DNA of 30,580 nucleotides from a virus. The DNA is taken from the IMG/VR virus record IMGVR_UViG_3300010885_029490, positions 1 through 30,580 of that record. The stretch is one strand, 5' to 3'. This document shows positions 10,468 through 30,580 of this stretch, in pieces. Each line of letters begins with the position of its first letter. The stretch's first letter is position 1. Made by a program: the position numbers and the translations under genes. The notes under the pieces are model-generated. The model was not told the DNA's origin. It searched no databases and worked only from the letters and a program-made list of their open reading frames with translations.

Positions 10468-13400
10468 ATGGCAGAAATAAAAAATAGTTTTCTACAATCC
10501 AAAATGAATCAAGACCTAGATGATAGGCTTATTCCAAATGGAGAATACAGATCCGCTTTAAATGTTTCTGTTGGGAAATCAGAAAATAGTGATGTAGGTA
10601 CATTGCAAAATGTATTAGGTAATAACTTTATTGCAGGAAATCCTATTGATATAGATGATCCAAATTATATACCTGGTCTTGAATGTATTGGTTATTTTAT
10701 GGACAATAATAATAATCGTATATATCAATTTTTAACTAATCAAGGAGATAATGGAGCAGCTCCTTTGCTGCATCAAATAACCGTATATGACTTTGGTTTA
10801 AACTCATATATAGTATTAGTGCAAGGAAAATTTTTAAATTTTTCAAAAGCTTCTCTAGTAACAGGAATAAATTTATTAGAAAATTTACTTTTTTGGACAG
10901 ATTATAATAATCAACCAAGAAAAATAAATGTACAATCAGCTATTTCAGCCCCTGCCACTACCGCAAATCCATATTATACTAGAGAGGAACAAATATCTGT
11001 AGCAAAATATGCGCCAGTTGACCCTATAGCATTGGTAAATGTTGTAACTACAACCGCGACCGCAAATGCTGTTGCTTCAATCACAATATTTGTAGCAAGT
11101 ACAACTGGTATTGAGCATGGAATGACTGTAATTGGAGGAGGTATAAATGATAGCGATTTCATATTAGTTGATGAAGTTATTAGTAGTACTGAATTATTAT
11201 TATATAGTCCAGTTTCGCTTTTGATTGGAGACAAACTAAAATTTCTACAATCTACAATGACCAATAAAGAGGACGATCCAAATTGGCCTGGAGACCCGTC
11301 ATATTTAAAATCAAGATATGTTAGATTTAGTTACAGGTTTAGGCTTGACGATGGCGAATATACCCTTATGGCTCCTTTTACACAAATAACATTTATACCT
11401 AATCAAAAAGGATACTTTGTAGATGGCAATGAAAACGCTGCTTATCAAAGCACCGTTGTAAAATGGTTTGAAAACAATGTTAACAATATTGAATTATTAA
11501 TACCATTTCCGGATATTTTAACTAATGTTAATCAATCTTATAAAATACAAGCAGTTGATATACTATATAAAGAATCCGACGGATTAGCGATCCACGTTGT
11601 TGAAACCATACCTTATGATGCTTTTTCGGCAATCCCAAATGCTTCCTCAACTAATATATATACTTACGACTACCAGTCTAGAAAACCATATAAAACATTA
11701 ACTGAAGATCAAACAACAAGAGTTTATGACTTAGTACCTGTTAAGGCTAAAGCACAAGAATCTGCTGGCAATAGAATAATATATGGTAATTTTATAAGAA
11801 ATTACACAGCTCCAAGATCTTTAAATTATCAAGTATCAGTTGCTGAAAAACAAGATTATTCTTTAAACTTTATAGAATATCCAAATCATACCGTAAAACA
11901 AAATAGAACTTATCAAGTTGGATTTATTTTATCTGATAAATACGGTAGACAATCTTCAGTAATATTATCTTCATTAGATACAAACACTACAATATCTGGC
12001 GGTATACAATACGGCGGATCAACCGTATATTCTCCTTATTATTCTGATGCAACGGCACCTATAACTAAAAATTGGTTTGGCAATGCAATATTAATGCTAA
12101 TAAATAGCCCTATTGCACCTATTACACAACCACCTCAACCAAGTTTAGGAACGCCAGGATTATATGCAGAATCAACATCAACTACAGGATTTACATTAAC
12201 TGGAACAACAACAACAACAAACACTACTTATGAATTTACACCAACAGCTGGAACTATTCCTAAAGTTGGAGATTTTATGAGAGGAGCGTTTACAGATTAC
12301 GTTGAAGTGCTAACGATTATTCCAACCCCTGCAAATCCTGTAATTTACGGTGTGCCTTATACCGTTACTACTACAGGTAGAGTCAATGACATCTATAATA
12401 GAGACACGGGTATTCCAAACGATATAAAATACGTTTACACTATTAATCCTTTGGGTTGGTATTCTTATAAAATTGTTGTTAGGCAACAAGAACAGGAATA
12501 CTACAATGTGTATTTACCGGGCATGTTAAATGGTTATCCAAAAGGTCAAACTTATGGATCAGAAACTACTTATCTTGCTAGTGTACCTACTTTAGTTAAC
12601 GGAATAAATACCACGGTATTTCCAACAAATGAAACTAACAAGGTAGCGCATACTGTATTAATAAATGATAATATAAATAAAATACCAAGAGACTTAGTTG
12701 AGGTAGGACCAGATCAAAAACAATACAGAAGTAGTGTGCAATTATACGGAAGAGTAGAAAATGTTTTAGTTGAATTAGGTCCTGGAGATACATATACAGA
12801 CAATACACAATATTTTCCGCCTAAAAAAGCGGATACGGCTATTACTATTTCAACTACAGCTGATTTAAGCTTTTTACCTCAGTCGGTAACAAATGAAAAA
12901 GGATCAGCTTCATATAATTTTTATCAATTAGAGACGCAGCCATTAGTGGCTAGAATATCTACAACAAATAAAATGGGGGTTACAGCTGTAGAAAATATAG
13001 AGGATTTACCATTACAACCAGATACATATATTAATGATCCGTATAATATGAATCCATATTTAAGCGTATACGAAACTAAACCCGTATATTCTTTATTGGA
13101 TATATTTTGGGAGACATCGTCTACCGGTATAGTTTCCGATTTAAATGCAGACGTGTTAACCGGATTTGAAGGCGGTGTTGGTTTATCTGATATTGATTTT
13201 GAAGATTTTGATGAATTTGCAAATCCTTTAGATCCTGTTACAAAATTTATAACAAATCAATTTTATCCAATATCAAACACAAATGTGGCTATTAATTCCA
13301 CTAATGTTACTCTTTCAGTTCGTAACGCTGATGATGGTCCATCCGGTCCAACAGACGTAAGCGCGGCATTTGGCATAGAAACTCAAAATGTTTCAGGTGT

Positions 13401-14754
13401 AAATCGATATAGAATATTTATAAACAATAACTTTGTTTTTACAAGCGCAATAAAATTAACAACTTTTACCTTTACAGTTTCTTTTATACAAGCCGGAGAT
13501 ACTACTCCAACGTCTTATGTAATAAACGGTAGGCTTGAAAACAAACCGCCTCAGATTTTAACGCCTGCTTCTTCGCCAACTGAAGTATCTTTAACTTCTC
13601 CGACAGCACCGCCAACACCTATATATACACTTACAGGACAAAATGGTGCTTTCTTTAGTCCGCAACCGCCAATATTGCCAAATACTCTTAGGCAAGAGGA
13701 ATTATTTTGGGATATTGTAGACAGCGGGTCTACTCCGGGATGGCAATCACTTTTTAACATAACAACAGATCCTATAACAAAAGAAGGTAAATTATACCTT
13801 ATAAATACATTTCCTTCGACAGGGATTATTTATACTTTGAATGTTAGATTAAGAGATGCTTGTACACCAGCAGGGGTACCTGTAACAAGTGTTTTTAATA
13901 AATATGAAAGCAAAGAAGACTTTACTGTAATAACAGTTAAATTAGGACAAACTGTTATTTGTGGCAGAACTTGGACAGCCTCTAATTATACTGGTATTAA
14001 TTTTCAGGATGGAACACCCTTAGTCTATGCAAAAAACGCTGCTGAGTGGGAAGAGGCAGGTATTAATGGATGGGGAGCTTGGTGTTATTATAATTATAAT
14101 GCTGCTAATTTTGCAACATATGGTAGATTATATAATGGATGGGCTATTTTTGGAGAATGGAAAGGCAGAACCAATAATGATCCGCTTAAACAATTTGCAC
14201 CTAATGGGTTTCACGTTCCTTATGGCAACGATAGAGCATATAACGGCAGTTCTTATGTAGGTGAATTATGCGACCTTGAACCTTGTTTTGGAACAAGTGC
14301 CGTTTCTGGTAAAGCATTTAAACAATCTGGGACAACATACTGGACAGCTCCTAATACAGGAACAAACACATCTACTTTTTCTGCATTGCCGGGTGGTTTT
14401 TGTAGGCCAAACGGAACTTTTGGCGGATTAGGTACAGAAGCATATTTTTGGACTTATGGAGTTTTTCCAGCAACAATAAATGGTGTACCAATGACTCCGT
14501 GTCAAACAGCTTTTAGTTTTTTAAACACTTCTGATGTATTTATACAAAATCCTTATCCAATGGGCTGGGGATTTTCCGTTCGATTTATAAATGATCAAGA
14601 AGTTTGTGTTAATGTTCAAACTAGCGGAAACGTTGTAAATATTTTTTACATGGCTGCAAACGGAAATCCTGGGCAAGAAGCAATTGGAGGTATATCCGGA
14701 GCGGATGAAAGAACAGTATGCGCTGTAACTGGATGCGCAATAGAGATACAATAA
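10468..14754 (+). CDS. Large tail protein (muzzle/nozzle-like) with C-terminal FISUMP domain
   Basis: 1428 residues, probably part of the tail tip and a candidate host-binding protein. The N-terminus (KMNQDLDDRLIPNGEYRSAL, then NVSVGKSENSDVGTLQNVLG) and LLFWTDYNNQPRKINVQS near 142-159 are typical of phage tail proteins with beta-propeller-like folds. The middle is Thr/Pro/Asn-rich and beta-repetitive. Residues about 1160-1377 form a FISUMP (Fib_succ_major, TIGR02145-like) domain: CGRTWTASNY near 1166, YGRLYNGW at 1218, PNGFHVP, ALPGGF at 1306 and GFSVRFIND at 1368. A further Cys-containing tail of about 50 residues follows. FISUMP domains occur in surface proteins of Bacteroidota, so placing one on a tail protein suggests adhesion. 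It is followed 36 bases later by a second protein with muzzle-type signatures; the two may jointly form the structure made by one protein in other crAss-like phages. Confidence 0.85.
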   Translation: MAEIKNSFLQSKMNQDLDDRLIPNGEYRSALNVSVGKSENSDVGTLQNVLGNNFIAGNPIDIDDPNYIPGLECIGYFMDNNNNRIYQFLTNQGDNGAAPLLHQITVYDFGLNSYIVLVQGKFLNFSKASLVTGINLLENLLFWTDYNNQPRKINVQSAISAPATTANPYYTREEQISVAKYAPVDPIALVNVVTTTATANAVASITIFVASTTGIEHGMTVIGGGINDSDFILVDEVISSTELLLYSPVSLLIGDKLKFLQSTMTNKEDDPNWPGDPSYLKSRYVRFSYRFRLDDGEYTLMAPFTQITFIPNQKGYFVDGNENAAYQSTVVKWFENNVNNIELLIPFPDILTNVNQSYKIQAVDILYKESDGLAIHVVETIPYDAFSAIPNASSTNIYTYDYQSRKPYKTLTEDQTTRVYDLVPVKAKAQESAGNRIIYGNFIRNYTAPRSLNYQVSVAEKQDYSLNFIEYPNHTVKQNRTYQVGFILSDKYGRQSSVILSSLDTNTTISGGIQYGGSTVYSPYYSDATAPITKNWFGNAILMLINSPIAPITQPPQPSLGTPGLYAESTSTTGFTLTGTTTTTNTTYEFTPTAGTIPKVGDFMRGAFTDYVEVLTIIPTPANPVIYGVPYTVTTTGRVNDIYNRDTGIPNDIKYVYTINPLGWYSYKIVVRQQEQEYYNVYLPGMLNGYPKGQTYGSETTYLASVPTLVNGINTTVFPTNETNKVAHTVLINDNINKIPRDLVEVGPDQKQYRSSVQLYGRVENVLVELGPGDTYTDNTQYFPPKKADTAITISTTADLSFLPQSVTNEKGSASYNFYQLETQPLVARISTTNKMGVTAVENIEDLPLQPDTYINDPYNMNPYLSVYETKPVYSLLDIFWETSSTGIVSDLNADVLTGFEGGVGLSDIDFEDFDEFANPLDPVTKFITNQFYPISNTNVAINSTNVTLSVRNADDGPSGPTDVSAAFGIETQNVSGVNRYRIFINNNFVFTSAIKLTTFTFTVSFIQAGDTTPTSYVINGRLENKPPQILTPASSPTEVSLTSPTAPPTPIYTLTGQNGAFFSPQPPILPNTLRQEELFWDIVDSGSTPGWQSLFNITTDPITKEGKLYLINTFPSTGIIYTLNVRLRDACTPAGVPVTSVFNKYESKEDFTVITVKLGQTVICGRTWTASNYTGINFQDGTPLVYAKNAAEWEEAGINGWGAWCYYNYNAANFATYGRLYNGWAIFGEWKGRTNNDPLKQFAPNGFHVPYGNDRAYNGSSYVGELCDLEPCFGTSAVSGKAFKQSGTTYWTAPNTGTNTSTFSALPGGFCRPNGTFGGLGTEAYFWTYGVFPATINGVPMTPCQTAFSFLNTSDVFIQNPYPMGWGFSVRFINDQEVCVNVQTSGNVVNIFYMAANGNPGQEAIGGISGADERTVCAVTGCAIEIQ
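13948..14598 (+). other. FISUMP domain coding segment
   Basis: Encodes residues about 1161-1377 of the large tail protein. Landmarks match the Fibrobacter succinogenes major paralogous domain: a V-I-C-G-R-T-W opening, G-R-L-Y-N-G-W-A, a P-N-G-F-H-V-P block (compare P-S-G-W-H-L-P), A-L-P-G-G-F, then F-W-T near the aromatic block, and the closing G-F-S-V-R. Unusually many Trp, Tyr, Asn and Cys residues are present. The domain is usually terminal on secreted or surface proteins, as here. Confidence 0.8.
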
Positions 14755-14790
14755 TATTAAAAAAACAAAAAAATAAGTAATTATAATAAT

Positions 14791-16362
14791 ATGAGTGCAA
14801 CAATAGAATTAAAATATTTCAACTCATTTTGGTTAAAAAAATTAAGATCAGTTGTCGATGTGCAGCCTACAACAGCCGCAAATACTATTTCTGCAAATGT
14901 TGCTCAAGGTGATACTATGATAACTATAGCTAGTTCTTACTCTCATATGGGAGTAGGGCAAGCAATATTTTATACATTGTTTTCTCAAACATTCACTTTA
15001 ATTATTAAATCTTTTAGTGGATTAAATGTGTATTTAGTAAATCCAGCAGAAACAGCAATACCCGCTGGAACGCCAATTACTTTTGGAAATATTGTTGATT
15101 TTGAATATGTACCCGCTGCTTATAGTGAAGACGAAGCTGATTGGTATATTGAAGAAGCTAGAATTAGAGGAGGGTACAATAATACAACTGTAGATTTTGG
15201 TGTTAAAGCTTATCTTGTTGAAGACAATAATAATCAACAAAATAGATCAAACTCATTAATTTATTCCGGTATATTTAATTCAAGAACTGGAGTAAATAAT
15301 ACAAATCAATTTTCAGTAGCTGAAGACATAACAAGATCTGTAGACCCTTCAAATGGAACAATACAGAAATTATACGCAGAAGATACCAATCTAATTATAT
15401 TCCAAGAATCAAAGGTTAGTAGAGCATTGATTGACAAAGATGCAATATACACAGCGGAAGGGCAGCCAATGACAACATCTGGAGCACAAGTAATTGGTCA
15501 AATACAATCTTATGCTGGTAATTACGGTATATCAACAAATCCAGAAAGCTTTGCGGTTTATGGATATAGAAAATATTTTGTAGATAGAACTCAAAATGTT
15601 GTATTACGTTTATCACAAGACGGAATAACAGAAATATCATCATATGGAATGCTTGATTTCTTTAGAGATAAATTAGGAAATGTTGGAGCAACAGGTAAAG
15701 TAGTAGGGGGATGGGATATACATAATAAACAATATGTAGTTTCATTGCAACCGGTTTCCCAATCAACAAACAATGAGGGAACTCCATTGGAGCCTTTTAC
15801 ATTGGCATTTGACGAGGAATCTTTAGGATGGGTTAGTTTTTACAGTTATATACCAGACTACATGGGCGGGCTTTTAAATAATTATTATAGTTTTTATAAC
15901 GGTGGTATTTGGATACATTATAATTCCAATGTAACAAGAGGTAATTTTTACAGTACCCAATACAATACAGAGGTAAAATTTGTATTTAATGCACAGCCTT
16001 CATTAATTAAAAACTTTAGCACAATAAATTATGAAGGATCCATTGGATGGAGATTAGATAGTATTATAACTGACATGGATCAATCTATTAGTATAGCCCC
16101 GGCATCCTCCGCTAATAATCAAACTTTAGCAGGAATTGAATTTGCATTGTTTTCTAATAACTTTAAAGCAAAAGAAAATAAATATTTTGCAAATATATTT
16201 AACAATTCTACAGCAATGGGAGGTGATATAATATGGGGACAATCAATGTCTGGTGTAAAAGGAATCTACGCTGTTTGCTCTTTTAGTTTAGACAACGCCC
16301 AATTCAATTCTCAAAAAGAATTATATGCTAGTTCCGTGGAGTACGTAGACTCATCATATTAA
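14791..16362 (+). CDS. Tail structural protein, muzzle/nozzle-like
   Basis: 523 residues. Signatures typical of crAss-like and related tail proteins are DWYIEEARIRGGYNNTTVDF (about 117-136), NSLIYSGIFNSRTGVNNTNQ near 155-174, and KLYAEDTNLIIFQESKVSRA near 193-212 followed by LIDKDAIYTAEGQP. The C-terminal half is a repetitive beta structure with many Tyr, Trp and Gly residues, consistent with a propeller blade arrangement. It probably builds the distal tail with the preceding 1428-residue protein. A 36-base A-rich gap precedes it, and the upstream gene ends in its own FISUMP domain, so this is a separate protein and not a frameshifted extension. No enzyme motif seen. Confidence 0.8.
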   Translation: MSATIELKYFNSFWLKKLRSVVDVQPTTAANTISANVAQGDTMITIASSYSHMGVGQAIFYTLFSQTFTLIIKSFSGLNVYLVNPAETAIPAGTPITFGNIVDFEYVPAAYSEDEADWYIEEARIRGGYNNTTVDFGVKAYLVEDNNNQQNRSNSLIYSGIFNSRTGVNNTNQFSVAEDITRSVDPSNGTIQKLYAEDTNLIIFQESKVSRALIDKDAIYTAEGQPMTTSGAQVIGQIQSYAGNYGISTNPESFAVYGYRKYFVDRTQNVVLRLSQDGITEISSYGMLDFFRDKLGNVGATGKVVGGWDIHNKQYVVSLQPVSQSTNNEGTPLEPFTLAFDEESLGWVSFYSYIPDYMGGLLNNYYSFYNGGIWIHYNSNVTRGNFYSTQYNTEVKFVFNAQPSLIKNFSTINYEGSIGWRLDSIITDMDQSISIAPASSANNQTLAGIEFALFSNNFKAKENKYFANIFNNSTAMGGDIIWGQSMSGVKGIYAVCSFSLDNAQFNSQKELYASSVEYVDSSY

Positions 16363-19091: not shown

Positions 19092-22000
19092 ATGAAAGTA
19101 TATAAAGATAGTGAAGGCAACTCCTATACTGAGGAGGAAGTGAATAAATTAGCTGAAGATAACCAAGTTACAATTGATGATATTATAGCTACAAACGAGC
19201 TTACAGAAGAGGACCAACAGGAAACAACTCAGCCTGAGGAAGAAGAACCTGAACAAGGCAGCAGTAAACTTGCTTATGTGGATACCACTCCCTTTGAAAC
19301 TGATATTACAGATCTAGGCATTGAACAAGAAGAAGATGATTTAGATCAATTAGTTAATCAACAACTTGCTTTACAAGAATCAAAACAGCCTCCTAAGAAA
19401 AAGAAAAAATCAACTTTAACGCCCGCTAAAGATCCATTTGGCGAAATAAAACCATTTGATCCACTTGGGCTGCAAAAATTTAACCCAAAACCAACTGTTG
19501 AAACTAAATTAAGCAAATTAAAAGGATTTGATCAACAAACAAAAAAAGATGTTCAAGAATTTAGAAGAGCTACCGCTTTTACTCAAGAAGAAATAAATCG
19601 ATTAAATAAGGAATTTGAGGATTATAGTAAACCGCAAAAAGTAACAACTTACTTGCCTGATGGTGGAGCTTATGGATATAGTACTACTGGGGGAGCAAAA
19701 AGTATAACTACTACCAGACCCGCGTTTGAAAAAGAAATTGCTCAAATAAAAAAACAATATGAAGGTACAGAATTATCTCAAGCTCAAATATTAGAAAAAG
19801 CAAAAGCTATGAAGCGTGCTGAATTGGCCGCCAATTTAAGAGATAAAAAAGGTACTGATTATATGAACTCAATTTCTAATTGGGGTAAATCAGATAAACA
19901 AAAAGGTATAGAGTCATATATAAACACGGAAACAGACTATTATAAAACTATATTAGATAATGGGGCCAAAAAAAGAGCTTTATTAAATATTGATCTTGTA
20001 GAGAAAGGGGCTGAATATACAAAATTGAATAATGAACTTGCTAAAGTAACAAAAGCAGATCTAAAATCAGAACAGGATGTTGCTGCTTATAGAAGTAAAT
20101 ATGAAAAAGCTAAAGAATTATATTCTTATATCGAAGGAATTAATTTAACCCTTAATAAAGACGATAGCGAATTTATAAATTCTACAAAGAAATTAAAATC
20201 CGCTGCGCAAGAATTTGATTTAGCAAAAAGATATTATGGATTTGATAATATACCTAAAAAAGCATGGGATACAATTGATTCATTAGCAGATGATCTTACT
20301 TTGCTTTCAATGGTTGGTGTATATGAGCCTATCAGATATATTAAAAATGCAATAACTGGTTATGTTAATAATCCATCCTATTCAATTTCTGATCAAACTT
20401 TTTTTGGAGAAGACACGTCTGATTTAGCAATTGCTTATCAGAAAAAGAAACAAGATACTGAAAACCAATATGAGAAAGTAATTTCTTCTAAAGGTAATGC
20501 TACTGCTATGGATATGACTAAGCACGCAGGCAACCTATTAATATCTCAATTGCCTAATATTGCATTAGGTGTTTTTACAGGGGGGGCGGAACCTGCTACT
20601 GTTGAAGGAGCTATTGCTCTTTCTGAAAAAGCTTTAGCAGGTAAAATTGTTACAAATATATCTGCAACCGCCGCCGAGAGAGCCGCAATATCGGATATAA
20701 TAGCAATGGGAGCGGATGATGCAATTGAAGCAGCTTTGATTAAAGTAGTAAATAAAGAGGCTATTAATAGTAGCGAAAGAATATTGTTAAAAGAAGCGGC
20801 CAAAAAAGCAGAAACTACCGCGCAACGTAAAGCTTTTGAAAGATTAATAAAAAAAGCAACTACAGCTGAGGCGGAAGCATTACCTCAAGCAATGTTACAG
20901 CAAACTTCTATTAATGCTTTAAGAGCAGGTGAGAATGCGGAAATTGCAAAAGTATTACAATGGACTTGGGACAAAGTTAAAATCACAACTCCAGCTGAAG
21001 CAGTAATTTTTGGTAGTTCAACTAGCGAAAAAATTGGTGAACAATTATATACAAATTCATTACCCGCGAGTCAAGGAGGTACTGATTATAATGCAGGGCA
21101 AATATTATTAAGTTCTGCTCTATGGGGTATTGCTGAAACAGCTGGTGAAAAAGTGCAATTAAAAGCAACAGGAGCATGGGCTAATACTATTAAAAAAACA
21201 TTACAAGAAACGCCTACTTTGGTAAATCAAATGGCTAAAGCGCAATTTAAAAATGTTTTAGCAAAAACAGGTGGAATATTAAAAGGGCAATTTAATGAAC
21301 AAGTTTCAGAACAAATAACAAATGCTTTACAGAATACCATTGATAAAACTTTATTAGGTAAAGATGTAGGAATTTTAGATAATACTGGTACAGTATTTAA
21401 AGATACTGCATTATTAGCTGGTTTAATGACAAGTATTCCTCATGTTGCAGGTGCAACTATAAAACCATTTATGGTTACAGCGGAACAAAAGCAAGTAAAA
21501 GCAATTAAAAATGAAATTGCTCCATTAATTGCAGAATTAAAAAAGCCATTATCTAAGGCCCAGAAAAAAGTTATTCAAGATAGAATTAAAGAATTAACAG
21601 TACAAGGTAGCACATTACACCAAAACGCAATACAGCGAATAGGCGATATGTCTATAGGATCTTGGAAAGAAATAGTAAACAATGCAAAAGCCCTTGCTGA
21701 TATACAATTACAAGCAAAGGAGATATATAACGGGAATAGTTCTAATAAAGATACTTTATTAAAGAATTTACAAACCAAATATAGCGAAATAGAAAACTCA
21801 ACAAACAGAACTCTTGCAAGAGCAAAAGATTTAAATGATACTACATTGTTTAAACAAATGGGTATTCAAGACAGAAGAATTGTTGTTGAGAATTTAACTG
21901 AAATAGCGAGATTAGAAGAATTAGGCAAAGGAGATAAATCTACTGCTGGATTGCATGTAGAAAAAATTAAAAACCTAAGAGTTGCTAACTCTGAAATATT

Positions 22001-25000
22001 AGTACGTAGCTCTAATGAAAACTTAGGGCAAATCATTAATACTGTTAACAAATATTATGGTGGACTTGGCGAAACCACTAGCAAAGTAATTGATGCTAAT
22101 GCAGATTTTGTAAAATTAAAAGAACAAGAGCTTAAAGACGCATCAAAAGATAAATCTCCTGAAGAAGTAGCAAAATTAAAAGAAAAACTTGCTGAAGAAT
22201 TAAAAAATTCAAATACAGAAGAGGTAGTAAAAGAATATAAAAGATTATTAACAGAAAGACTTGAGAAAGACTCTGAAGGTAAATCAGATGAGGTTGTTGC
22301 TGAATTAAATAAAAAGTACAACGATACTTTAGCTAAATTTGCTGAAGATACAAAAGATTCTAATGTAAATGCGTTTGTACTTTCTATGCCTAGGCTTGAT
22401 GCTCAAGGCAAACAAATGACCGACTCTAGGGGTAGATTGCTAACTGATGATGTAATTCTAACTAACAAAAGAACTGCTGAAGCCAAAGGAGGAACTACAA
22501 ATGCGCAAGGGCTTGATGCAGCTACGATTGCATCCCACGAATTACTTCATGTATTATTGGCAAAAGCTTTTGGCATCAATCAAAACGCTTTTGTTCCATT
22601 AGCAAATGCTTTATTAGATCATATTGCTATAGAAAATCCTACTTTAGCTGAAAATATAAAAAAATATATTGAATTATCTTACGAAACCTCTGATGGCGGA
22701 ATAAAAGCTGAGGAGATTATTGTATTAGTTTCTGAGTTAATATCTTCTGGCACCTTGAAATATAATGAATCTTTCTTTAAAAAGATTGGATTAATATTAG
22801 TTAATGCTTTTAACAATGTATTAGGCATCCCTCAAATTAATAAAGCTCAAGGTGTTAAACTTAACACAGGTAAAGATGTATATGAATTCTTAGGAAGTTA
22901 TGCAAATTCTTTCAGTGCAGGTAAAATATCTGAAGGTATGAAACTCGCTTTAAAAGGTGGAGTTTCTGGAACATTATTAGAAGGAGCAACTGTTGGAACA
23001 GGCAAAGTAAATACAACATTTTCTAAAGCTAAAGTAGCTGAGGTTCAAGCAAAAATAGATGTTCTTGAAGACCAATACGATAATGATGATATAGAATACG
23101 ATGCTTACGAAAATAAACTTGCGATACTTAAAGAAGAATTAAAGAAAGCTCAAGCTTTACCAGAAGTTGAAACTAAACCAAAAGTCGAAAAACCAAAGGT
23201 TGAAATTAATGCTGAAGATGAGGTTAAAGAAATTATTAAAAATGATAAAGGGTCTGTATCTTCAGATAAAGTTCAGCAAATATATGAAGCTAAAGGATTA
23301 AATGGTGCTGATGAGATCATAAAACTATTTAGACCTATTACAAATAAGATTGTAAACAAAAGAAGAGATGCCCCTGGGTTTGAAGAAAATTTACTTAGAG
23401 ATGAAATAGAGACAGGCGAAGGCGGTATTCTTTATCTTATTAGAAGTTACAAACCTGAAAAAGGAGTGCCTTTAGCGGCTTATATCAATAAGCAATTACC
23501 GCTAAGAGCTATTGCATCGTCTAGAAGAGTGCTAGATAAAGAATTTAGCAAAGACGTTACGGAAGAAAAAGCGTTAATGGCTTCAGAAGCGTCCACAGAG
23601 GTAAAAGAAAAGCCAAAGTATAAGAATGCATTAGAATCAAAAGTTTTTAGTCCAGAGGTCTTAGAAACGGCTAATAAGAAGATATTACCAATTGTAAGAA
23701 CATTGAAGTCTAGAATTGATGCTCCGGTATCATTAAATAGAACAATTACACCATTAATTTCTGAAATTAGAGACGAAATTGGTAAACAATTAGATATTGA
23801 TGTTAAAACCGCAATGGGCGGTAAAAAAGATAATCAATTGCAAAATTGGTTATTAGATAATAAACAGTACATTCTTGAGAACATGACCACAACCTGGTTA
23901 ATGGGTAAAGATGGGCAAGGAGGAATGCCAATTGCTATTCAAAAACAAATTGATGGTAAATTTGTTAATTTTCCTGATTGGGTTGGTAAAAAAATTGATA
24001 GAGAAAAAACAACTACAGATCAGGCGGGAAGAACTTCCGGTGCTGAAATAGTTAGAAGATTACCTAATGTTAATAATAATATATCAGACTCTCAATTTCT
24101 TGATCAAGTAATTGGTCCTGATGGAAATCCATTAAGAGGTAGAAAAGAATCTTTAGCAAAAGCAATTGCCGAAGAAACCGCATTTGATATAATTAATGAG
24201 GATCTTGCAAATGACGGGCCAATATCTGAAGCGCTTAGTGCTAATCAAGAAAGACAAGGCGTTGTAATTGCTGAAAATTTTGCTGTAGATTTTGCGAGAC
24301 AAGCCGATAGAGGTAATGTTAAATTTTCTAAAGAACTTAAATTAAAATTAGCGGAAAAATTAAAAACTGATGTTACTAATAAAAAAGTGGTAAATCTTAT
24401 TGTAGAAATGATACAAGATATTATCAAGCCTACAATGTACAAAAGGACCAAAGCTTTAAAAGATAAAGAAATAAGTTTAAGAGACCAATTAGGTAATGAT
24501 TTATATGAAGAATTATATGATGAATATTTAGCACCTATTGCCGATGCCCTTGAAACGGTTAGAACCGCTCAAGCCGGCAAGAGAGGTAATGCTGCAGAAG
24601 AAGAAGTTATAAGAACATTAAACAATGTAAAGAATAAAGATTTTAAAGTAATTTCTATAAAAGCCGCCGGAGCAGGATCTGACGCGGTTGATGTTAAGTT
24701 TTCTTATAAAGGACTTGATATAAACTTTGAAGTTAAATCAGGCAAGAATGATAGAATAACTTCATTAAATGTTCATAACTATGCAAATAACAAAAAACTA
24801 AACACCTCAAGAAGTCTTAACCAAAAAAATAAAAAAGGACTACTTGATCAAATAGAAAAAAATGCAAAATTTAATTCTTTTGTAAAAAAAGCATTAGAAG
24901 GTGGAGCTACTTTTACTGAAAACGGAAGTTTAGAAGTTGATCAAAAATTATTAAATAAATTAACACCTGGCGATAATACGCTTTATAAAAGGACATTAAT

Positions 25001-28000
25001 ATCTGGTAATGATTTAAATATACCAATAGAACTTGTAGCTGATATAAATAGCCGTAAGGGGATTAATTATATAGGGTTTGGGGATATTGGCATTTTTTAT
25101 ATAAAAAGTAATCCGCTTAAGCTTAATGTTCCTGCCTTACAAGGGAAATTGTATTCTAAAGCATTTTTACATGCTGGAAATGTTAAAAAAAATGGCAAAA
25201 GAACCCTTACTTTAAAAGTGTATACTCAGTTAACAACGGCAACTTCAAATGAATTAACACAAAAATCAAAATCATCTATTTATAGCCCAGAATCTTGGGA
25301 TAGATTATTTAGTAGTATACCTGAAGGAAGAATTGAATATTTAAAAAATATTAAAAACGCTGAAACCAATACAAATAATATTGAAGCCATTAAAGCTACC
25401 AATCTTTCTAAAACGCCTAAAGGTATTTCAGTATTTGATTTTGATGATACCGTTGGTTTAACTTCAGGTAGCGTGCTATACACAATGCCTGATGGTTCAA
25501 CCGGCAAATTAAATGCAGAAGAGTTCGCTAAAGAAGGTGGCAATATGCTAGATGCTGGTGCAGAGTTTGATTTCTCTGAATTTAGTAAAGTTGTTGACGG
25601 AAAACCAGGTCCAATGGTTGAGAAGATGAAGAAGATGATTGGCAAGTTTGGCCCTGAAAACTTCTTTATACTTACCGCTAGGCCTGCTAATGCGGCGGGC
25701 CCAATACACGAATTTTTATCTTCTATTGGTATTGATATACCTTTAGAAAATATAACAGGATTAGGCAATAGCGCAGCTCAAGCAAAAGCAGACTGGATGA
25801 CTAAAAAAGCAGCGGAAGGATATAATGATTTCTATTTTGCTGATGACGCTCCACAAAATGTAGAGGCTGTTAAAAAAGCTTTAGATATTCCTGGAGTAAA
25901 TTCAAAGATACAACAAGCCCGCACTAAATTTTCATTAACATCTAAACAAGATTTAAAGTGGAAACAAGGTGATGAAGATTTATCAACTAAATTTACAGTA
26001 GGCAATATTGATTATAGAATATCTATGATTGAAACCGCTTTTATGGAATATGACAATGACGTTCAAAAAACCTTATTTGATTTAGTAGAAGAAAATAATC
26101 TTGATGAGGATAACACTATAGCAGCTTACGATGGCGAAGCATATAATTTAGAATTTTGGGATAAAAAACAAGGCAATGGAATAACCGGTACGGGTAACGC
26201 GGCAGAAGTGTTTGGTATAGTTATTAACGGAGTGACTGAAAGAGTTAAGAAAAAAAATATTGAGGCATTAGTATTTACCGCAAAAGAGCCTAGCAGAATT
26301 AAATTATATAATTCAATGGCTGAAGTTGTTGCTGACAAATTAGGATGGGGAGCTTATTATAAAGACGGTGTTTATATATTAGCAAAAAAACCAAAAACAA
26401 CTGAGGCAACAACTGGTGTGGGTAGTTTAAAACCTGTGCAAGATGTTTTAAAAGTTGTAGATATTAAATCACCAATAAATCAATCAAAAATAAAATTTAG
26501 TAAAACCATATCTTCAGAATTCAATAAAATAATTGAAGAGAATACTGGTATGGAAAACTATAAAGTATTTTCAGATATTGTTGCTAGGAGAAGAGGTGTT
26601 AATAAAAACAAATTTGATTTTTATGTTCCGCCGTCGGCTGCTGATTTTGAATTACTATTATATAACTTTATAGGTAAAGGAACGCGCGGCGAAGAACAAC
26701 AAAAATTCTTTGCAGATGCTTTATTAAAACCATACGCAAATGGTAATGATTTGATGGATGCCGCAAGACAGTCTATTAAAAATGATTATAAAGCATTGAT
26801 AAATCAATTTCCAGGAATTAAAAAGAAAATAGAAAGTTTAACCCCAGACGGTGATTTTACATATGATCAAGCAATACGTGTTGCCTTATGGACAGAAGAA
26901 GGTATTGAAATACCTGGTTTATCACAAAGAGATCAAACTAAATTAGTAGATCTTGTAAATAACGATCCTGAATTAACAGCATTTAAACAAGGTGTATTAG
27001 TTACGGGTAGACAAGGTAAAGGATGGATTGCTCCTACTGAATATTGGGATGCAAGTACAATTATATCTGATTTACATAATTTAACTGAAGGTGCGGGTAG
27101 AAAAAAATTCCTTGCAGAATTTATTGAGAACACTGAAGAAATGTTTGGTAAGTTTGAGAACGGTAAGTTGGTTGGTCCTAATATAAATAAGATTGAAGCG
27201 GTTTACGGTACAAACGTAAGAGAAGCTTTAGACGATCAATTATATAGAATGATCAATGGCAAAAATAGAAGTTATGGTAGTGATAAAGAAACTTCTATGT
27301 GGTCTAATTGGGTAAACGGATCTACAGGGGCTATTATGTTCTTAAATACCAGATCCGCTGTATTACAATTACTTGGGGCGGTAAACTTCTTAAACTTAAG
27401 AGACAATAACCCTATTGCTGCAGGTAAAGCTTTTGCAAATCAAAAACAATATTGGGCAGATTTTTCACGTATTTGGAATTCAGATAAGATAAAGGAAAGA
27501 CGTGGTGGTTTAAAAGAAGACGTTGCTGCAGCGGAAATTGCTAATGCTGCGGCTGGAAGTAAAAACAAAGTTAATGCCGTTATATCATACTTATTAAAAA
27601 TAGGATATACACCAACACAATTAGCGGATAGTTTTGCGATTGCATCAGGTGGAGCACCGTATTATAGAAATAGAATTAACACTTATTTAAAGGAAGGGCA
27701 ATCACAAGAAGATGCAGAAAAGAATGCATGGAGTGACTTTACTAAAGTATCTGACGAAACGCAACAGTCAGGTGATCCGAGAGATATATCAAAACAACAA
27801 GCAAGCCCAGCTGGAAGATTATTATTAACTTTCCAAAACTTTTCAATGCAGCAATCCCGTATTGTTAAGAAGTCTTTCTTAGATCTTAAAAATGGTAGAG
27901 GAGATGCTAAAACGCATTTGGCAAAAATAATTTATTATTTAGCAATACAAAACACATTGTTTGCCGTATTACAACAAGGATTATTCGCAGTTGCATTTGA

Positions 28001-29063
28001 CGATGATGATGAAGAATTAGATAAAGAGAAAGACAAAGCAAAAAAGAAAACACTTAATGAAAGATTAGTGGATGTAGCTGACGGTGTATTAGATACAATA
28101 CTTAGGGGTACTGGATTTTTAGGCGGAGTTATTTCTGTATTAAAGAACATGACTAAAAAGTATCTTGACGAAAAAGATAAAGGCTTTAAAGCTGACTATG
28201 CAAAAGTTATGCTGGAAGGAGCTAATATATCACCTCCAATTGGATCTAAGCTTAGAAAAGTATATACAGGACTTCAACAAACTAAATTTGAGAAGGATCT
28301 TATAGACGAAAGAGGCTGGGGAGTAATGCAAGACGGTAGAGTTCACTTAGGGCCTATGTATGGCGTAACCGGAAAACTTGTAGAAGCCGGTACAAATATA
28401 CCAATGGATCGTTTGGTAAATAAAATTGAGAACGTGTCTCAAGCAATGAATTCACAAAACAAAGCTTGGCAAAGAGTTGCGGTTGGATTAGGGTTTACAC
28501 CTTATTCAGTAGGTATAGAAGATACAAAAGGGGATTTAGAAATTAGAGCTAAAGCAAAAGCAACTAGAAAAGAAGCTGGTAAAACTAAAAGAAAAGATTC
28601 TAGTCAACAGGAAAGAGATAGTATTGCTAATTTGTCTGAGGATGCTTATATGGATTTTGTAAGAGCTAGAAAAGAGGCCAGAGAAAGAAAAAAAGATAGT
28701 ATTGCTAATCTGCCTGCAGATCAAAAGAAAGCTTATTTAGAAAAGAAAGCTGCCGAATCAGAAGCTCGTAAAAGAGAAAAGGAAGCTTTAAATAAAATAA
28801 AATCTGATAGTATAGCTGGATTATCTCCAACTGAAAAAGCTAATTATAATAAAAAGATTGCCGCTGAAAAAGCGAAAAAGAAAAAAGAACGCCATGATAA
28901 ATACGAAGAAAAGAAAAAAGCGTTAAAAGACAGCTTAGCGGGATTAAGCCCAAGAGAAAGGGCAAAGTATATAGCTGACAAAAAAGCAGAAAGACATGAA
29001 TATTATATAAAAAATAAAAAACCGTCTAAAGCTAAAAAACCTAAAGCATTTTCTGCTTGGTAA
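19092..29063 (+). CDS. Giant polyvalent protein (zincin, sigma-like, PD-(D/E)xK, HAD modules)
   Basis: 3323 residues in one frame, about a third of the window. Order by residue: N-terminal motif KVYKDSEGNSYTEEEVNKLA (2-21) and acidic linker; long helical region (about 140-1030) with hydrophobic stretches near 485-545 and 770; zincin (about 1050-1270, HELLH at 1149-1153); coiled linker; sigma region 2-like domain (about 1365-1495); conserved unknown domain (about 1500-1740); PD-(D/E)xK-like nuclease (about 1826-1990); HAD phosphatase (about 2108-2275); GNAT-like domain (about 2288-2430); hydrophobic C-terminal region (about 2735-2990); four repeats (3176 onward). T7 gp16 and polyvalent proteins show that such giants can be packaged and enter the cell with the DNA; that role is inferred here from position. 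No lytic transglycosylase or RNA polymerase motif was seen. The start ATG has no Shine-Dalgarno. Confidence 0.9.
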   Translation: MKVYKDSEGNSYTEEEVNKLAEDNQVTIDDIIATNELTEEDQQETTQPEEEEPEQGSSKLAYVDTTPFETDITDLGIEQEEDDLDQLVNQQLALQESKQPPKKKKKSTLTPAKDPFGEIKPFDPLGLQKFNPKPTVETKLSKLKGFDQQTKKDVQEFRRATAFTQEEINRLNKEFEDYSKPQKVTTYLPDGGAYGYSTTGGAKSITTTRPAFEKEIAQIKKQYEGTELSQAQILEKAKAMKRAELAANLRDKKGTDYMNSISNWGKSDKQKGIESYINTETDYYKTILDNGAKKRALLNIDLVEKGAEYTKLNNELAKVTKADLKSEQDVAAYRSKYEKAKELYSYIEGINLTLNKDDSEFINSTKKLKSAAQEFDLAKRYYGFDNIPKKAWDTIDSLADDLTLLSMVGVYEPIRYIKNAITGYVNNPSYSISDQTFFGEDTSDLAIAYQKKKQDTENQYEKVISSKGNATAMDMTKHAGNLLISQLPNIALGVFTGGAEPATVEGAIALSEKALAGKIVTNISATAAERAAISDIIAMGADDAIEAALIKVVNKEAINSSERILLKEAAKKAETTAQRKAFERLIKKATTAEAEALPQAMLQQTSINALRAGENAEIAKVLQWTWDKVKITTPAEAVIFGSSTSEKIGEQLYTNSLPASQGGTDYNAGQILLSSALWGIAETAGEKVQLKATGAWANTIKKTLQETPTLVNQMAKAQFKNVLAKTGGILKGQFNEQVSEQITNALQNTIDKTLLGKDVGILDNTGTVFKDTALLAGLMTSIPHVAGATIKPFMVTAEQKQVKAIKNEIAPLIAELKKPLSKAQKKVIQDRIKELTVQGSTLHQNAIQRIGDMSIGSWKEIVNNAKALADIQLQAKEIYNGNSSNKDTLLKNLQTKYSEIENSTNRTLARAKDLNDTTLFKQMGIQDRRIVVENLTEIARLEELGKGDKSTAGLHVEKIKNLRVANSEILVRSSNENLGQIINTVNKYYGGLGETTSKVIDANADFVKLKEQELKDASKDKSPEEVAKLKEKLAEELKNSNTEEVVKEYKRLLTERLEKDSEGKSDEVVAELNKKYNDTLAKFAEDTKDSNVNAFVLSMPRLDAQGKQMTDSRGRLLTDDVILTNKRTAEAKGGTTNAQGLDAATIASHELLHVLLAKAFGINQNAFVPLANALLDHIAIENPTLAENIKKYIELSYETSDGGIKAEEIIVLVSELISSGTLKYNESFFKKIGLILVNAFNNVLGIPQINKAQGVKLNTGKDVYEFLGSYANSFSAGKISEGMKLALKGGVSGTLLEGATVGTGKVNTTFSKAKVAEVQAKIDVLEDQYDNDDIEYDAYENKLAILKEELKKAQALPEVETKPKVEKPKVEINAEDEVKEIIKNDKGSVSSDKVQQIYEAKGLNGADEIIKLFRPITNKIVNKRRDAPGFEENLLRDEIETGEGGILYLIRSYKPEKGVPLAAYINKQLPLRAIASSRRVLDKEFSKDVTEEKALMASEASTEVKEKPKYKNALESKVFSPEVLETANKKILPIVRTLKSRIDAPVSLNRTITPLISEIRDEIGKQLDIDVKTAMGGKKDNQLQNWLLDNKQYILENMTTTWLMGKDGQGGMPIAIQKQIDGKFVNFPDWVGKKIDREKTTTDQAGRTSGAEIVRRLPNVNNNISDSQFLDQVIGPDGNPLRGRKESLAKAIAEETAFDIINEDLANDGPISEALSANQERQGVVIAENFAVDFARQADRGNVKFSKELKLKLAEKLKTDVTNKKVVNLIVEMIQDIIKPTMYKRTKALKDKEISLRDQLGNDLYEELYDEYLAPIADALETVRTAQAGKRGNAAEEEVIRTLNNVKNKDFKVISIKAAGAGSDAVDVKFSYKGLDINFEVKSGKNDRITSLNVHNYANNKKLNTSRSLNQKNKKGLLDQIEKNAKFNSFVKKALEGGATFTENGSLEVDQKLLNKLTPGDNTLYKRTLISGNDLNIPIELVADINSRKGINYIGFGDIGIFYIKSNPLKLNVPALQGKLYSKAFLHAGNVKKNGKRTLTLKVYTQLTTATSNELTQKSKSSIYSPESWDRLFSSIPEGRIEYLKNIKNAETNTNNIEAIKATNLSKTPKGISVFDFDDTVGLTSGSVLYTMPDGSTGKLNAEEFAKEGGNMLDAGAEFDFSEFSKVVDGKPGPMVEKMKKMIGKFGPENFFILTARPANAAGPIHEFLSSIGIDIPLENITGLGNSAAQAKADWMTKKAAEGYNDFYFADDAPQNVEAVKKALDIPGVNSKIQQARTKFSLTSKQDLKWKQGDEDLSTKFTVGNIDYRISMIETAFMEYDNDVQKTLFDLVEENNLDEDNTIAAYDGEAYNLEFWDKKQGNGITGTGNAAEVFGIVINGVTERVKKKNIEALVFTAKEPSRIKLYNSMAEVVADKLGWGAYYKDGVYILAKKPKTTEATTGVGSLKPVQDVLKVVDIKSPINQSKIKFSKTISSEFNKIIEENTGMENYKVFSDIVARRRGVNKNKFDFYVPPSAADFELLLYNFIGKGTRGEEQQKFFADALLKPYANGNDLMDAARQSIKNDYKALINQFPGIKKKIESLTPDGDFTYDQAIRVALWTEEGIEIPGLSQRDQTKLVDLVNNDPELTAFKQGVLVTGRQGKGWIAPTEYWDASTIISDLHNLTEGAGRKKFLAEFIENTEEMFGKFENGKLVGPNINKIEAVYGTNVREALDDQLYRMINGKNRSYGSDKETSMWSNWVNGSTGAIMFLNTRSAVLQLLGAVNFLNLRDNNPIAAGKAFANQKQYWADFSRIWNSDKIKERRGGLKEDVAAAEIANAAAGSKNKVNAVISYLLKIGYTPTQLADSFAIASGGAPYYRNRINTYLKEGQSQEDAEKNAWSDFTKVSDETQQSGDPRDISKQQASPAGRLLLTFQNFSMQQSRIVKKSFLDLKNGRGDAKTHLAKIIYYLAIQNTLFAVLQQGLFAVAFDDDDEELDKEKDKAKKKTLNERLVDVADGVLDTILRGTGFLGGVISVLKNMTKKYLDEKDKGFKADYAKVMLEGANISPPIGSKLRKVYTGLQQTKFEKDLIDERGWGVMQDGRVHLGPMYGVTGKLVEAGTNIPMDRLVNKIENVSQAMNSQNKAWQRVAVGLGFTPYSVGIEDTKGDLEIRAKAKATRKEAGKTKRKDSSQQERDSIANLSEDAYMDFVRARKEARERKKDSIANLPADQKKAYLEKKAAESEARKREKEALNKIKSDSIAGLSPTEKANYNKKIAAEKAKKKKERHDKYEEKKKALKDSLAGLSPRERAKYIADKKAERHEYYIKNKKPSKAKKPKAFSAW
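22240..22900 (+). other. Zincin metallopeptidase domain of the giant protein
   Basis: HELLH (residues 1149-1153, codons from 22536) is a complete HExxH zinc-binding and catalytic motif in a hydrophobic helix, preceded by an Ala-Thr-Ile-Ala-Ser strand-helix junction. A candidate third ligand is a Glu in GIKAEEIIVLVSEL, about 60 residues downstream, which would make it gluzincin-like. Zincins of this sort are recurrent in phage polyvalent proteins, where they may process the protein itself or cut host proteins. Confidence 0.75.
23184..23576 (+). other. Domain resembling sigma-70 region 2 in the giant protein
   Basis: Residues about 1365-1495. The core GGILYLIRSYKPEKGVPLAA (from residue 1444) followed by YINKQLPLRAIASSRR parallels the sigma-70 region 2 pattern in which a Gly-Leu-rich helix, a D/K-P-x-x-G turn and a Y/F-x-x-W-I-x-Q-x-I helix follow each other. 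It is preceded by a helix with FRPITNKIVNKRR. The aromatic DNA-melting residues are not clearly kept, so it may bind core polymerase or DNA without acting as a full sigma factor. Resemblance judged by eye. Confidence 0.5.
24573..25060 (+). other. PD-(D/E)xK nuclease-like domain of the giant protein
   Basis: Residues about 1828-1990. A leading helix GKRGNAAEEEVIRTL provides the usual early Glu. Asp1867 (SDAVDVKFSYKG) and the Glu1880-Val-Lys1882 motif (FEVKSGK) lie 13 residues apart on predicted consecutive strands, the classic spacing of restriction-endonuclease-fold enzymes. The catalytic set therefore appears intact, which suggests active cleavage of DNA or RNA. The target is unknown. Confidence 0.72.
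25413..25916 (+). other. HAD-superfamily phosphatase domain of the giant protein
   Basis: Residues about 2108-2275. Motif I DFDDT (Asp2116, Asp2118, Thr2120) follows a beta strand. Motif II is the Thr of FFILTARP (near 2190). A downstream Lys in QAKADWMTKK fits motif III. Motif IV is FADDAPQN (Asp2251-Asp2252). All four HAD motifs are present in order, so an active phosphohydrolase is likely. The substrate is unknown; nucleotides, protein phosphates or nucleic acid ends are possible. Confidence 0.85.
25953..26381 (+). other. Compact domain with TGTGNA and FTAKEPSRIKLY motifs, perhaps GNAT-like
   Basis: Residues about 2288-2430. TGTGNAAEVF (from residue 2365) and FTAKEPSRIKLY (2395-2406) form a strand-loop-helix pair reminiscent of the acetyl-CoA site of GNAT acetyltransferases, and the same pairing recurs in other large phage proteins as I know them. 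It is bounded on both sides by the F-S junction motif. Fold assignment is tentative. Confidence 0.45.
28617..29030 (+). repeat. Four imperfect DS(I/L)AxL(S/P) protein repeats at the giant protein's C-terminus
   Basis: Units begin at residues 3176, 3202, 3239 and 3280 (codons at 28617, 28695, 28806 and 28929): DSIANLS, DSIANLP, DSIAGLS, DSLAGLS. Each is followed after 3-8 residues by a Tyr and then a Lys/Arg/Glu-rich helix. Spacing is 26, 37 and 41 residues. The protein ends soon after in a Lys-rich tail. The segment is basic and probably binds nucleic acid or a capsid partner. Confidence 0.8.
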
Positions 29064-29385: not shown

Positions 29386-30580
29386 TTAAGTTATTTCGCA
29401 TCCAGCTGGTCCACACGCAACTGATTCGCTAAAGTTAGTATTATCTTGTATTTCAATTACTTTTGATAGATCAACATCTTTTAATGTTAACATCATTTGA
29501 TCGTACATTTCTTTAGTACAATCTTCAAATGGCGTTTGTTTATATGTGCCTCCATGATATGGTAGAACAGACAAACCATTATAGTATTCTTTGTTTGCCC
29601 ACATCCATTCACCAACAATTTTCCATTCATCATCTCTTACCGAAACAGTACACGAAACATTATGTGTATTGTTACCTTTAATGTGCCCAGGCTTAACCCA
29701 ATCTTTAGATATTAGTTTTACTCTTTCAAGCGCATCTAATGTTGACTCATATCTTGTTATAGCGCCATTTGGAGCCTTCTGCGGAACAGATATGACTGAC
29801 TGTAATGTTGGATTAAAATATTCATCTTCGATCAATTCTGGATGATTTATTGCAAGATAAGAATAGATTGCTTCATTCTTGCCTAAGCGCATGCGACGAA
29901 TATAATAGTCATTGTGCCAAGCATGAATACCGCTAGAAGTGCCAAGTACAAGGCTAGTCGTTCCTGCCGGCTTAACTGCGGTGGTTCTGGCCGCTCTGTT
30001 GATATTAAGAGCCGCTGCAATAATATTATTTGTTTCCTTAACAGTTTGTGCTGCTTCTTCATAGTTTAGTTTTAAATTTGATTCTGATGCAATACCAGTC
30101 ATTGATACCCCAAGCAATGCATCTTTTTCTGTATTCTTTCTCCATATATCACGCAAGTAATGAAAATCTGAATACGATGCTTGTAATGTACCTAAGAACG
30201 CTGCTGCCGATGATCTTGCGTTGAAGTCTTCTTGATCTTCAATATCAGCCATGTTAATCTCTGTTAAGTTACAAAACTGATAAGGACGTAAAGCAATTTC
30301 ACAACAAGGATTAGTACCCCAATCTTTATCATTAGTAAGGTAAATTCCTGGCTCGCCCGATCCAGAAGCCTCAATACGTTCCCAAACTTTGTCAAATGTT
30401 TTTTTATCAATTTTATGTCTTAAAAGTACTACTGAATTATTTGATCTACCTCTTTGTGGATTATCTTCCCACCAATTTCCCGCCTTACAATTTAACATTG
30501 CATTACTATCGAGATCGAACAGCGAGATCATTGCTGCTCTTCTAATGCCACCTGCTAAAACCGCGTCGGCAATATGACAC
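29386..30580 (-). CDS. nrdJ: Class II (B12-dependent) ribonucleotide reductase, C-terminal part
   Basis: Reduces ribonucleotides to deoxyribonucleotides for phage DNA synthesis using adenosylcobalamin. The window holds the last 397 residues; the frame runs open off the right edge, so the true start is outside. Visible motifs: VLAGGIRRAAMISL near the edge; NPCCEI (codons at 30295-30312) with the active-site Asn, Cys and Glu; CNLTEIN a few residues later; the phosphate-binding VKPAGTTSLVLGTSSG, then YYIRRMRLGK; and a C-terminal CGPAGC pair (29398-29415) in the Cx4C spacing of the redox-active tail of monomeric RTPR-type enzymes. The second Cys in NPCCEI is unusual (NPCSEI and NPCGEI are the common forms). 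It faces the virion operon and shares an operon with the 76-residue gene. Confidence 0.9.
   Translation of the reverse strand, partial: CHIADAVLAGGIRRAAMISLFDLDSNAMLNCKAGNWWEDNPQRGRSNNSVVLLRHKIDKKTFDKVWERIEASGSGEPGIYLTNDKDWGTNPCCEIALRPYQFCNLTEINMADIEDQEDFNARSSAAAFLGTLQASYSDFHYLRDIWRKNTEKDALLGVSMTGIASESNLKLNYEEAAQTVKETNNIIAAALNINRAARTTAVKPAGTTSLVLGTSSGIHAWHNDYYIRRMRLGKNEAIYSYLAINHPELIEDEYFNPTLQSVISVPQKAPNGAITRYESTLDALERVKLISKDWVKPGHIKGNNTHNVSCTVSVRDDEWKIVGEWMWANKEYYNGLSVLPYHGGTYKQTPFEDCTKEMYDQMMLTLKDVDLSKVIEIQDNTNFSESVACGPAGCEIT

Follow-up and report, generated by a model that had tools for sequence, protein, structure and literature searches.

As described by Iyer et al. (2017, PMC5512222), polyvalent proteins are single chains encoded in late gene clusters and combining disparate enzymatic domains, a zincin among them. 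In phage crAss001, the gene of the muzzle protein gp44 is followed by those of the cargo proteins gp45 and gp46 and of the giant gp47, and mass spectrometry detected gp45, gp46, gp47, gp49 and gp50 in virions (PMC10172136). The virion RNA polymerase of phage N4, gp50, is a giant with an N-terminal ejection part, an HExxH zincin motif and a large helical C-terminal part (PMC12633501). The Flavobacterium phage elemoE (NC_055854) also encodes a giant, the 3,694-aa gp18.

The window, i.e., the whole stretch of DNA analysed here, is 30,580 bases long and constitutes a complete IMG/VR record, probably covering only part of a genome some 60–70 kb in size, related records being 58–68 kb long. It encodes a giant of 3,323 aa belonging to the known polyvalent class. 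Its neighbours code for TerL, portal, a major-capsid candidate and further structural proteins; TerL, portal and MCP matched podoviruses of Flavobacterium and Cellulophaga, with TerL relatives found in Flavobacterium elemo phages, Cellulophaga phages and MW202828. Of two ORFs upstream of the giant, one matched the N-terminal and the other the C-terminal part of the muzzle protein of crAss phages. Further genes of the cluster encode a short tail-fibre adhesin, a virion protein of 301 aa (phrog_6121) and a protein of 448 aa. The source phage is best explained as a crAss-related podovirus of Flavobacteriia. The first-pass annotation had placed a polyvalent protein at the end of a virion operon, which was borne out by the late virion genes alongside and the disparate domains in one chain. 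Its comparison with T7-like phages was dropped, as the muzzle matched crAss-virus families and TerL, portal and MCP those of the flavophage podoviruses.

The crAss-type muzzle was split over two ORFs, 10468–14754 with the N-terminal part and a Fib_succ_major domain at its end, and 14791–16362 with the C-terminal domain; the break may mark the insertion of a surface domain. On the minus strand, facing the giant gene, a ribonucleotide reductase large-subunit ORF (29386–30531) of just 381 aa aligned to the C-terminal half of phrog_367 and is possibly split or truncated.

The location of the giant gene resembled that in crAss001, as the virion clusters are syntenic and the giant comes after the muzzle and a pair of smaller cargo genes, and gp47 also has HExxH. 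By this match of position to gp47, the giant is likely to be virion cargo. In contrast, none of the module profiles of the window family matched gp47, gp49 or gp50 of crAss001. Unlike the RNA polymerase cargo gp49/gp50, the giant has no DxDxD, for which reason an RNA polymerase identity was rejected, and its phages carry sigma factors instead. The likeness to N4 gp50 consisted in a putative N-terminal ejection part, HExxH and a helical C-terminal part, but sigma-like, nuclease, phosphatase and GNAT-like modules stand in place of the polymerase. The giant gp18 of elemoE occupies the same place and has a homologous zincin (E 2.8e-13, the only named-phage relative found), whereas its other modules and core were not homologous by profile. 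As in the polyvalent proteins of Iyer et al. (2017), ART-like and zeta/kinase modules are added in relatives of the window giant; the word "sigma" is absent from that paper (PMC5512222). LPD38 (PF18857) had no match in the window giant, nor in any control.

The uninterrupted frame of 3,323 codons reported by the first-pass annotation was confirmed as a single ORF. The third-position GC was 0.17–0.20 in each 500-codon block, and the uniform codon-position GC along 19092–29063 indicated one coding frame. All key residues cited for the named modules were present and conserved across relatives. The GNAT-like module, the family-defining C-terminal core, the junction motif and the exchangeable nuclease slot were features beyond that first reading. 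The features of the giant are as follows:

19092..29063, plus strand: whole ORF of the 3,323-aa polyvalent protein, ATG start, no internal stop
19092..22361, plus strand: poorly conserved N-terminal region, aa 1–1090, no transmembrane segment
22374..22991, plus strand: zincin (gluzincin-type) metallopeptidase module by signature residues, aa 1095–1300, HELLH at 1149–1153 and E1208
23013..23027, plus strand: TTFSK junction motif after the zincin, aa 1308–1312, in a segment with pLDDT<50 (model residues 199–223)
23244..23561, plus strand: sigma-70 region 2-like domain, aa 1385–1490, from profile searches and predicted structure
23589..24296, plus strand: sigC, a highly conserved helical domain, aa 1500–1735, usually adjoining the sigma-like domain
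24321..24332, plus strand: KFSK junction motif, aa 1744–1747, in a segment with pLDDT<50 (model residues 652–662)
24567..25271, plus strand: PD-(D/E)XK nuclease module, aa 1826–2060, with E1836, D1867, E1880 and K1882, in a slot exchanged in relatives
25404..25886, plus strand: HAD phosphatase of the Pnkp 3'-phosphatase fold, aa 2105–2265, from motifs and structure comparison
25926..25937, plus strand: KFSL junction motif, aa 2279–2282, in a segment with pLDDT<50 (model residues 1184–1200)
25959..26396, plus strand: likely GNAT-fold acetyltransferase-like module, aa 2290–2435, from structure comparison
26493..26504, plus strand: KFSK junction motif, aa 2468–2471, at the C-terminal edge of a low-confidence stretch (model residues 146–179)
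26505..28586, plus strand: conserved, mostly helical C-terminal core defining the family, aa 2472–3165
28599..29060, plus strand: lysine-rich tail, aa 3170–3323, with four DS(I/L)A(N/G)L repeats

The identities of the modules are secure, with the exception of the GNAT, which is likely, and of the zincin fold, indicated by its signature. Scans of the single protein sequence with Pfam, NCBIfam and PADLOC gave nothing useful, no match among 50,697 phage records was obtained by tblastn with the first 3,000 aa, the sigma slice or the nuclease slice, and a 1,200-residue model compared with the PDB by Foldseek had no significant match of its own.

Residues 1–1,090, at the N-terminus, were not conserved among relatives and are a probable packaging/ejection part. 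In the zincin module, the 56 aligned relatives invariably had HExxH and, 55 residues further on, a Glu; of the 148 large proteins of the family, 147 contained HExxH, as against 1.3 in shuffles. HExxH plus the downstream Glu make up the gluzincin signature. The profile search of PDB sequences gave nothing credible for the zincin alignment, and the fold had no structural match of its own, the structure-match list being filled by the HAD.

The sigma region 2-like core proposed by the first-pass annotation was borne out by profile searches with hhalign, Pfam and the PDB. A profile of 75 diverse sequences was compared by hhalign with seven sigma factors (four of E. coli and three from the relatives' own genomes), yielding a probability of 91% and an E of 9.8e-7, whereas 29 control windows from the same protein family reached at most 1.8%. 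Regions 2.1–2.3 aligned in register with RpoD, RpoS, RpoH, FliA and the phages' own sigma. Among 55 relatives, Pfam Sigma70_r2 was the most frequently matched family (6/55, best E 1.2e-4), and the top ten matches of the 55-relative profile among all PDB sequences were sigma factors (best E 7.6e-4). The PDB matches were obtained only with this diverse profile; the first alignment, of 28 close relatives with sigC included, found no sigma factor among PDB sequences, and an earlier narrow profile reached 40% in hhalign. The 3,323-aa protein itself was below the Sigma70_r2 cut-off, as was one relative's frame (E 0.007). The predicted structure showed a matching long helix, a broken helix and a 21-residue helix. 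The strict sigma profile was found in 32 first-set ORFs and the broader one recovered 74 ORFs from both sets. The profile evidence indicates that the core is homologous to sigma-70 region 2.

Whether such a domain would bind RNA polymerase is a separate matter, and it is quite conceivable, though on the whole doubtful, that region 2 was reused here as a DNA-binding or structural helical domain. No region 4, which recognises -35, was matched by Pfam in the 3,323-aa protein, the domain was divergent in many relatives, its members having just a few residues in common, and it was fused in every copy found. Such reuse is opposed by the in-register alignment of regions 2.1–2.3 and by the distribution of other sigma factors: core-bearing phages generally have a true sigma factor encoded separately (in 13 of 16 near-complete relatives, about 255–286 aa, above the Pfam cut-off), while five related phages with other giants and no core do not. 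The RpoC-type RNA polymerase was not found in any of the 10 relatives searched, with all 14 controls positive; PF00940 (T7-type RNAP) had no match in 10 relatives and none in controls either. Since these phages carry separate sigma factors and no RpoC-type polymerase was found, they probably rely on the host polymerase, which would make a sigma region 2 in a cargo protein meaningful. In the relatives L177–L183, the stand-alone sigma factor was about 255 aa long, and in L179 its gene was located near that of an ERF-like annealing protein.

A phrase search of 5.39 million papers, outside subscription papers, for a sigma factor in the virion or injected returned none concerning phages among the ten matches listed, and a sigma region 2 within a polyvalent protein appears undescribed. 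The first-pass annotation had suggested that the combination of sigma-like, nuclease and HAD modules may be a new domain architecture. A PD-(D/E)XK domain in large crAss-like proteins was previously noted (PMC7886860).

The nuclease module contained the catalytic string D1867-x12-E1880-V-K1882 plus E1836, and these four residues were invariant in seven divergent nucleases, the others being 21–63% identical to the first. A stand-alone homologue, PSSM2_192 of cyanophage P-SSM2 (E 3.2e-9), carries PD and EVK. The model had an alpha-beta-beta-beta layout, which fits the alpha-beta-beta-beta-alpha-beta core of PD-(D/E)XK nucleases, and Foldseek found the P-SSM2 homologue; no solved nuclease matched the model, and the profile search of PDB sequences gave nothing credible for the alignment. 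The slot between sigC and the HAD was compared in 59 sequences, which fell into three main classes. The class of the window protein had D-xn-ExK in 17 of 18 members (2.4 in shuffles), the largest class EHxxP in 22 of 33 (0.2 in shuffles) and the third EHxxP in 4 of 8 (0.1 in shuffles). At the level of motifs, the EHxxP domains look like HNH/His-Me nucleases. The exchangeable nuclease slot appears to be new.

The HAD contained D2116-F-D2118-D-T2120, T2195, K2232 and D2251/D2252, and its motifs were kept in 35 relatives; motifs I–IV together with the fold characterise it as Pnkp-type. The best solved structures were bacterial Pnkp1 (Z 11.7, rmsd 3.3) and the T4 Pnkp 3'-phosphatase (Z 11.5, rmsd 2.4), to which it is alike in fold and motifs. 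In contrast to these proteins, the kinase half is missing from the window giant; the relative L046 has a P-loop kinase of the zeta/AAA_33 type (Pfam 5e-14). The HAD alignment had no match in the profile search of PDB sequences, and tblastn of the HAD slice against the 50,697 phage records found one uncultured phage (E 3e-7). Fold comparison supported the phosphatase, with its Pnkp fold, but gave no match to a solved structure for the zincin or the nuclease. For aa 2290–2435, most of the 50 structure matches listed were GNATs with moderate Z of 5.4–7.0, and the Foldseek comparison with LasI had a probability of 0.97 and an E of 0.18; the model thus points to a likely GNAT. The C-terminal core had no credible match in the profile search of PDB sequences or in Foldseek, and no Pfam family was recognised. 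The four repeats of the tail (28617–28964) were not seen in 147 relatives.

Related stretches in IMG/VR numbered 386 in one scan and 288 in a scan with the distant core. Module profiles found the core in 79 first-set ORFs (in every member by definition), the zincin in 69, sigC in 59, the HAD in 53, the GNAT in 9 and this nuclease in 6; in the distant set, the core and the HAD were present in 75/75 each and the zincin in 63/75. The giant family is a mosaic in which individual modules were gained, lost or replaced. In L040, the GNAT was located between the zincin and sigC rather than after the HAD, which shows that modules move, and L005, L041 and L043 had an ART-like segment as well, identified at the motif level.

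Several giants were irregular in other ways. In L005, at about aa 2030–2163, a partial HAD start (SVFDFDDTVGLTKGSVLYTMPG) leads into the ART-like segment directly before the full HAD, as if the insertion had duplicated the module edge. The giant gene was broken into overlapping ORFs in L021 (7130–13102 / 13048–16290, near the nuclease slot) and L038 (7430–11266 / 11233–15528, in the sigma/sigC region), by a frameshift, an assembly error or a true gene split. The terminase of L003/L085 (MW202828) was 64% identical to that of the window, with a 3,859-aa giant unrelated by profile and bearing two HEFGH motifs; the giant gene seems to have been replaced wholesale between close phages.

The universality of the core and the fact that several modules can be missing are consistent with a mainly structural or ejection scaffold, the enzyme-like modules being inherited passengers of minor importance in infection. 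This is a rather improbable account, as the catalytic residues stayed invariant while their surroundings diverged to about 20% identity and one nuclease type replaced another in the same slot, both signs of selected activity.

The motif [VIAT][KR][FY]S[KL] recurred at module junctions in low-confidence linkers. It followed the zincin, sigC, HAD and GNAT and preceded HAD, ART and zeta modules. KFSK was the most repeated 4-mer inside giants (20/73, expected 0). For [KR][FY]S[KRL], 114 occurrences were observed in giants against 30.7 expected, compared with a single one in other large ORFs totalling 93,491 aa, and a looser form after dereplication gave 209 against 62.7 expected (sd 7.7). The motif copies after sigC and after the HAD are orthologous and thus not independent, and the position of the motif relative to the module masks is partly circular, mask ends having been trimmed after the motif was seen, and is not the main evidence.

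The simplest explanation of the motif is a candidate protease cleavage site. Alternatively, with appreciable but lesser probability, the motif is a hinge or a relic of recombination that joined modules: it sits at module borders, where a recombination joint would be expected, and about one-fifth of HExxH-bearing relatives lack it, as do the HExxH-containing giants of elemoE, MW202828 and Gundel. However, the Ser codons of the motif were evenly split (58 AGY and 58 TCN), and a different Ser codon was used in each of the window protein's three exact copies. Such an even split indicates that the constraint acts at the protein level and, like the varied codons, argues against DNA-level homology as the cause; the location of the copies in or at the edge of linkers with pLDDT<50 also speaks for a candidate cleavage site. 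Cleavage could not be linked to the presence of the zincin because the zincin signature is nearly universal. As far as the polyvalent literature was checked, the slot and the junction motif are not described there.

On balance, the giant is rather probably a virion-cargo polyvalent protein releasing modules that would take over the host RNA polymerase, attack DNA and mend the ends of nucleic acids. The more specific proposal can be put forward only tentatively, namely that the sigma piece is delivered in the virion and captures the host RNAP before phage expression, the vehicle being a self-processing cassette whose modules, interchangeable nucleases included, are separated by a common protease site. 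Processing might also precede packaging, with the zincin cutting in the producing cell or prohead, some pieces being packaged and other modules acting late, e.g., on the DNA or RNA of the host at the time of assembly. In favour of this order, cleavage of P1 DdrB precedes its encapsidation (discussed in PMC5512222), the giant gene lies in the late virion cluster and muzzle homologues were present in the loci of 66 of 74 relatives. Nevertheless, this order of events is unlikely, as the N4 virion RNAP, a similar zincin-bearing giant, is packaged uncut (PMC5512222) and crAss001 gp47, gp49 and gp50 were detected in virions (PMC10172136).

According to the favoured cargo reading, the giant would be packaged into the capsid alongside internal proteins and would leave by being threaded through the tail, its constant C-terminal core being a likely packaging or assembly part. 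Cleavage by the zincin, in cis or in trans, would follow at the flexible junctions bearing [VIAT][KR][FY]S[KL]. Alone or together with sigC, the sigma region 2-like module would bind the host RNA polymerase at the sigma-factor site and either favour phage promoters or displace the host sigma until the phage's own sigma is made. The nuclease module would attack host or rival DNA, the Pnkp-like phosphatase would heal nucleic-acid ends, perhaps those left by host anticodon nucleases, and the GNAT-like module would modify some target.

Phages carry an RNA polymerase in the virion, as N4 and crAss phages do, or begin with unmodified host polymerase, a sigma factor being made later. Cargo of the virion that includes a sigma region 2, if true, would be a third way to start transcription. 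The junction motif offers a testable answer to the question of how polyvalent modules separate after entry, and the nuclease slot, in which at least two nuclease types unrelated to each other occur, provides a natural series for probing the nuclease target.
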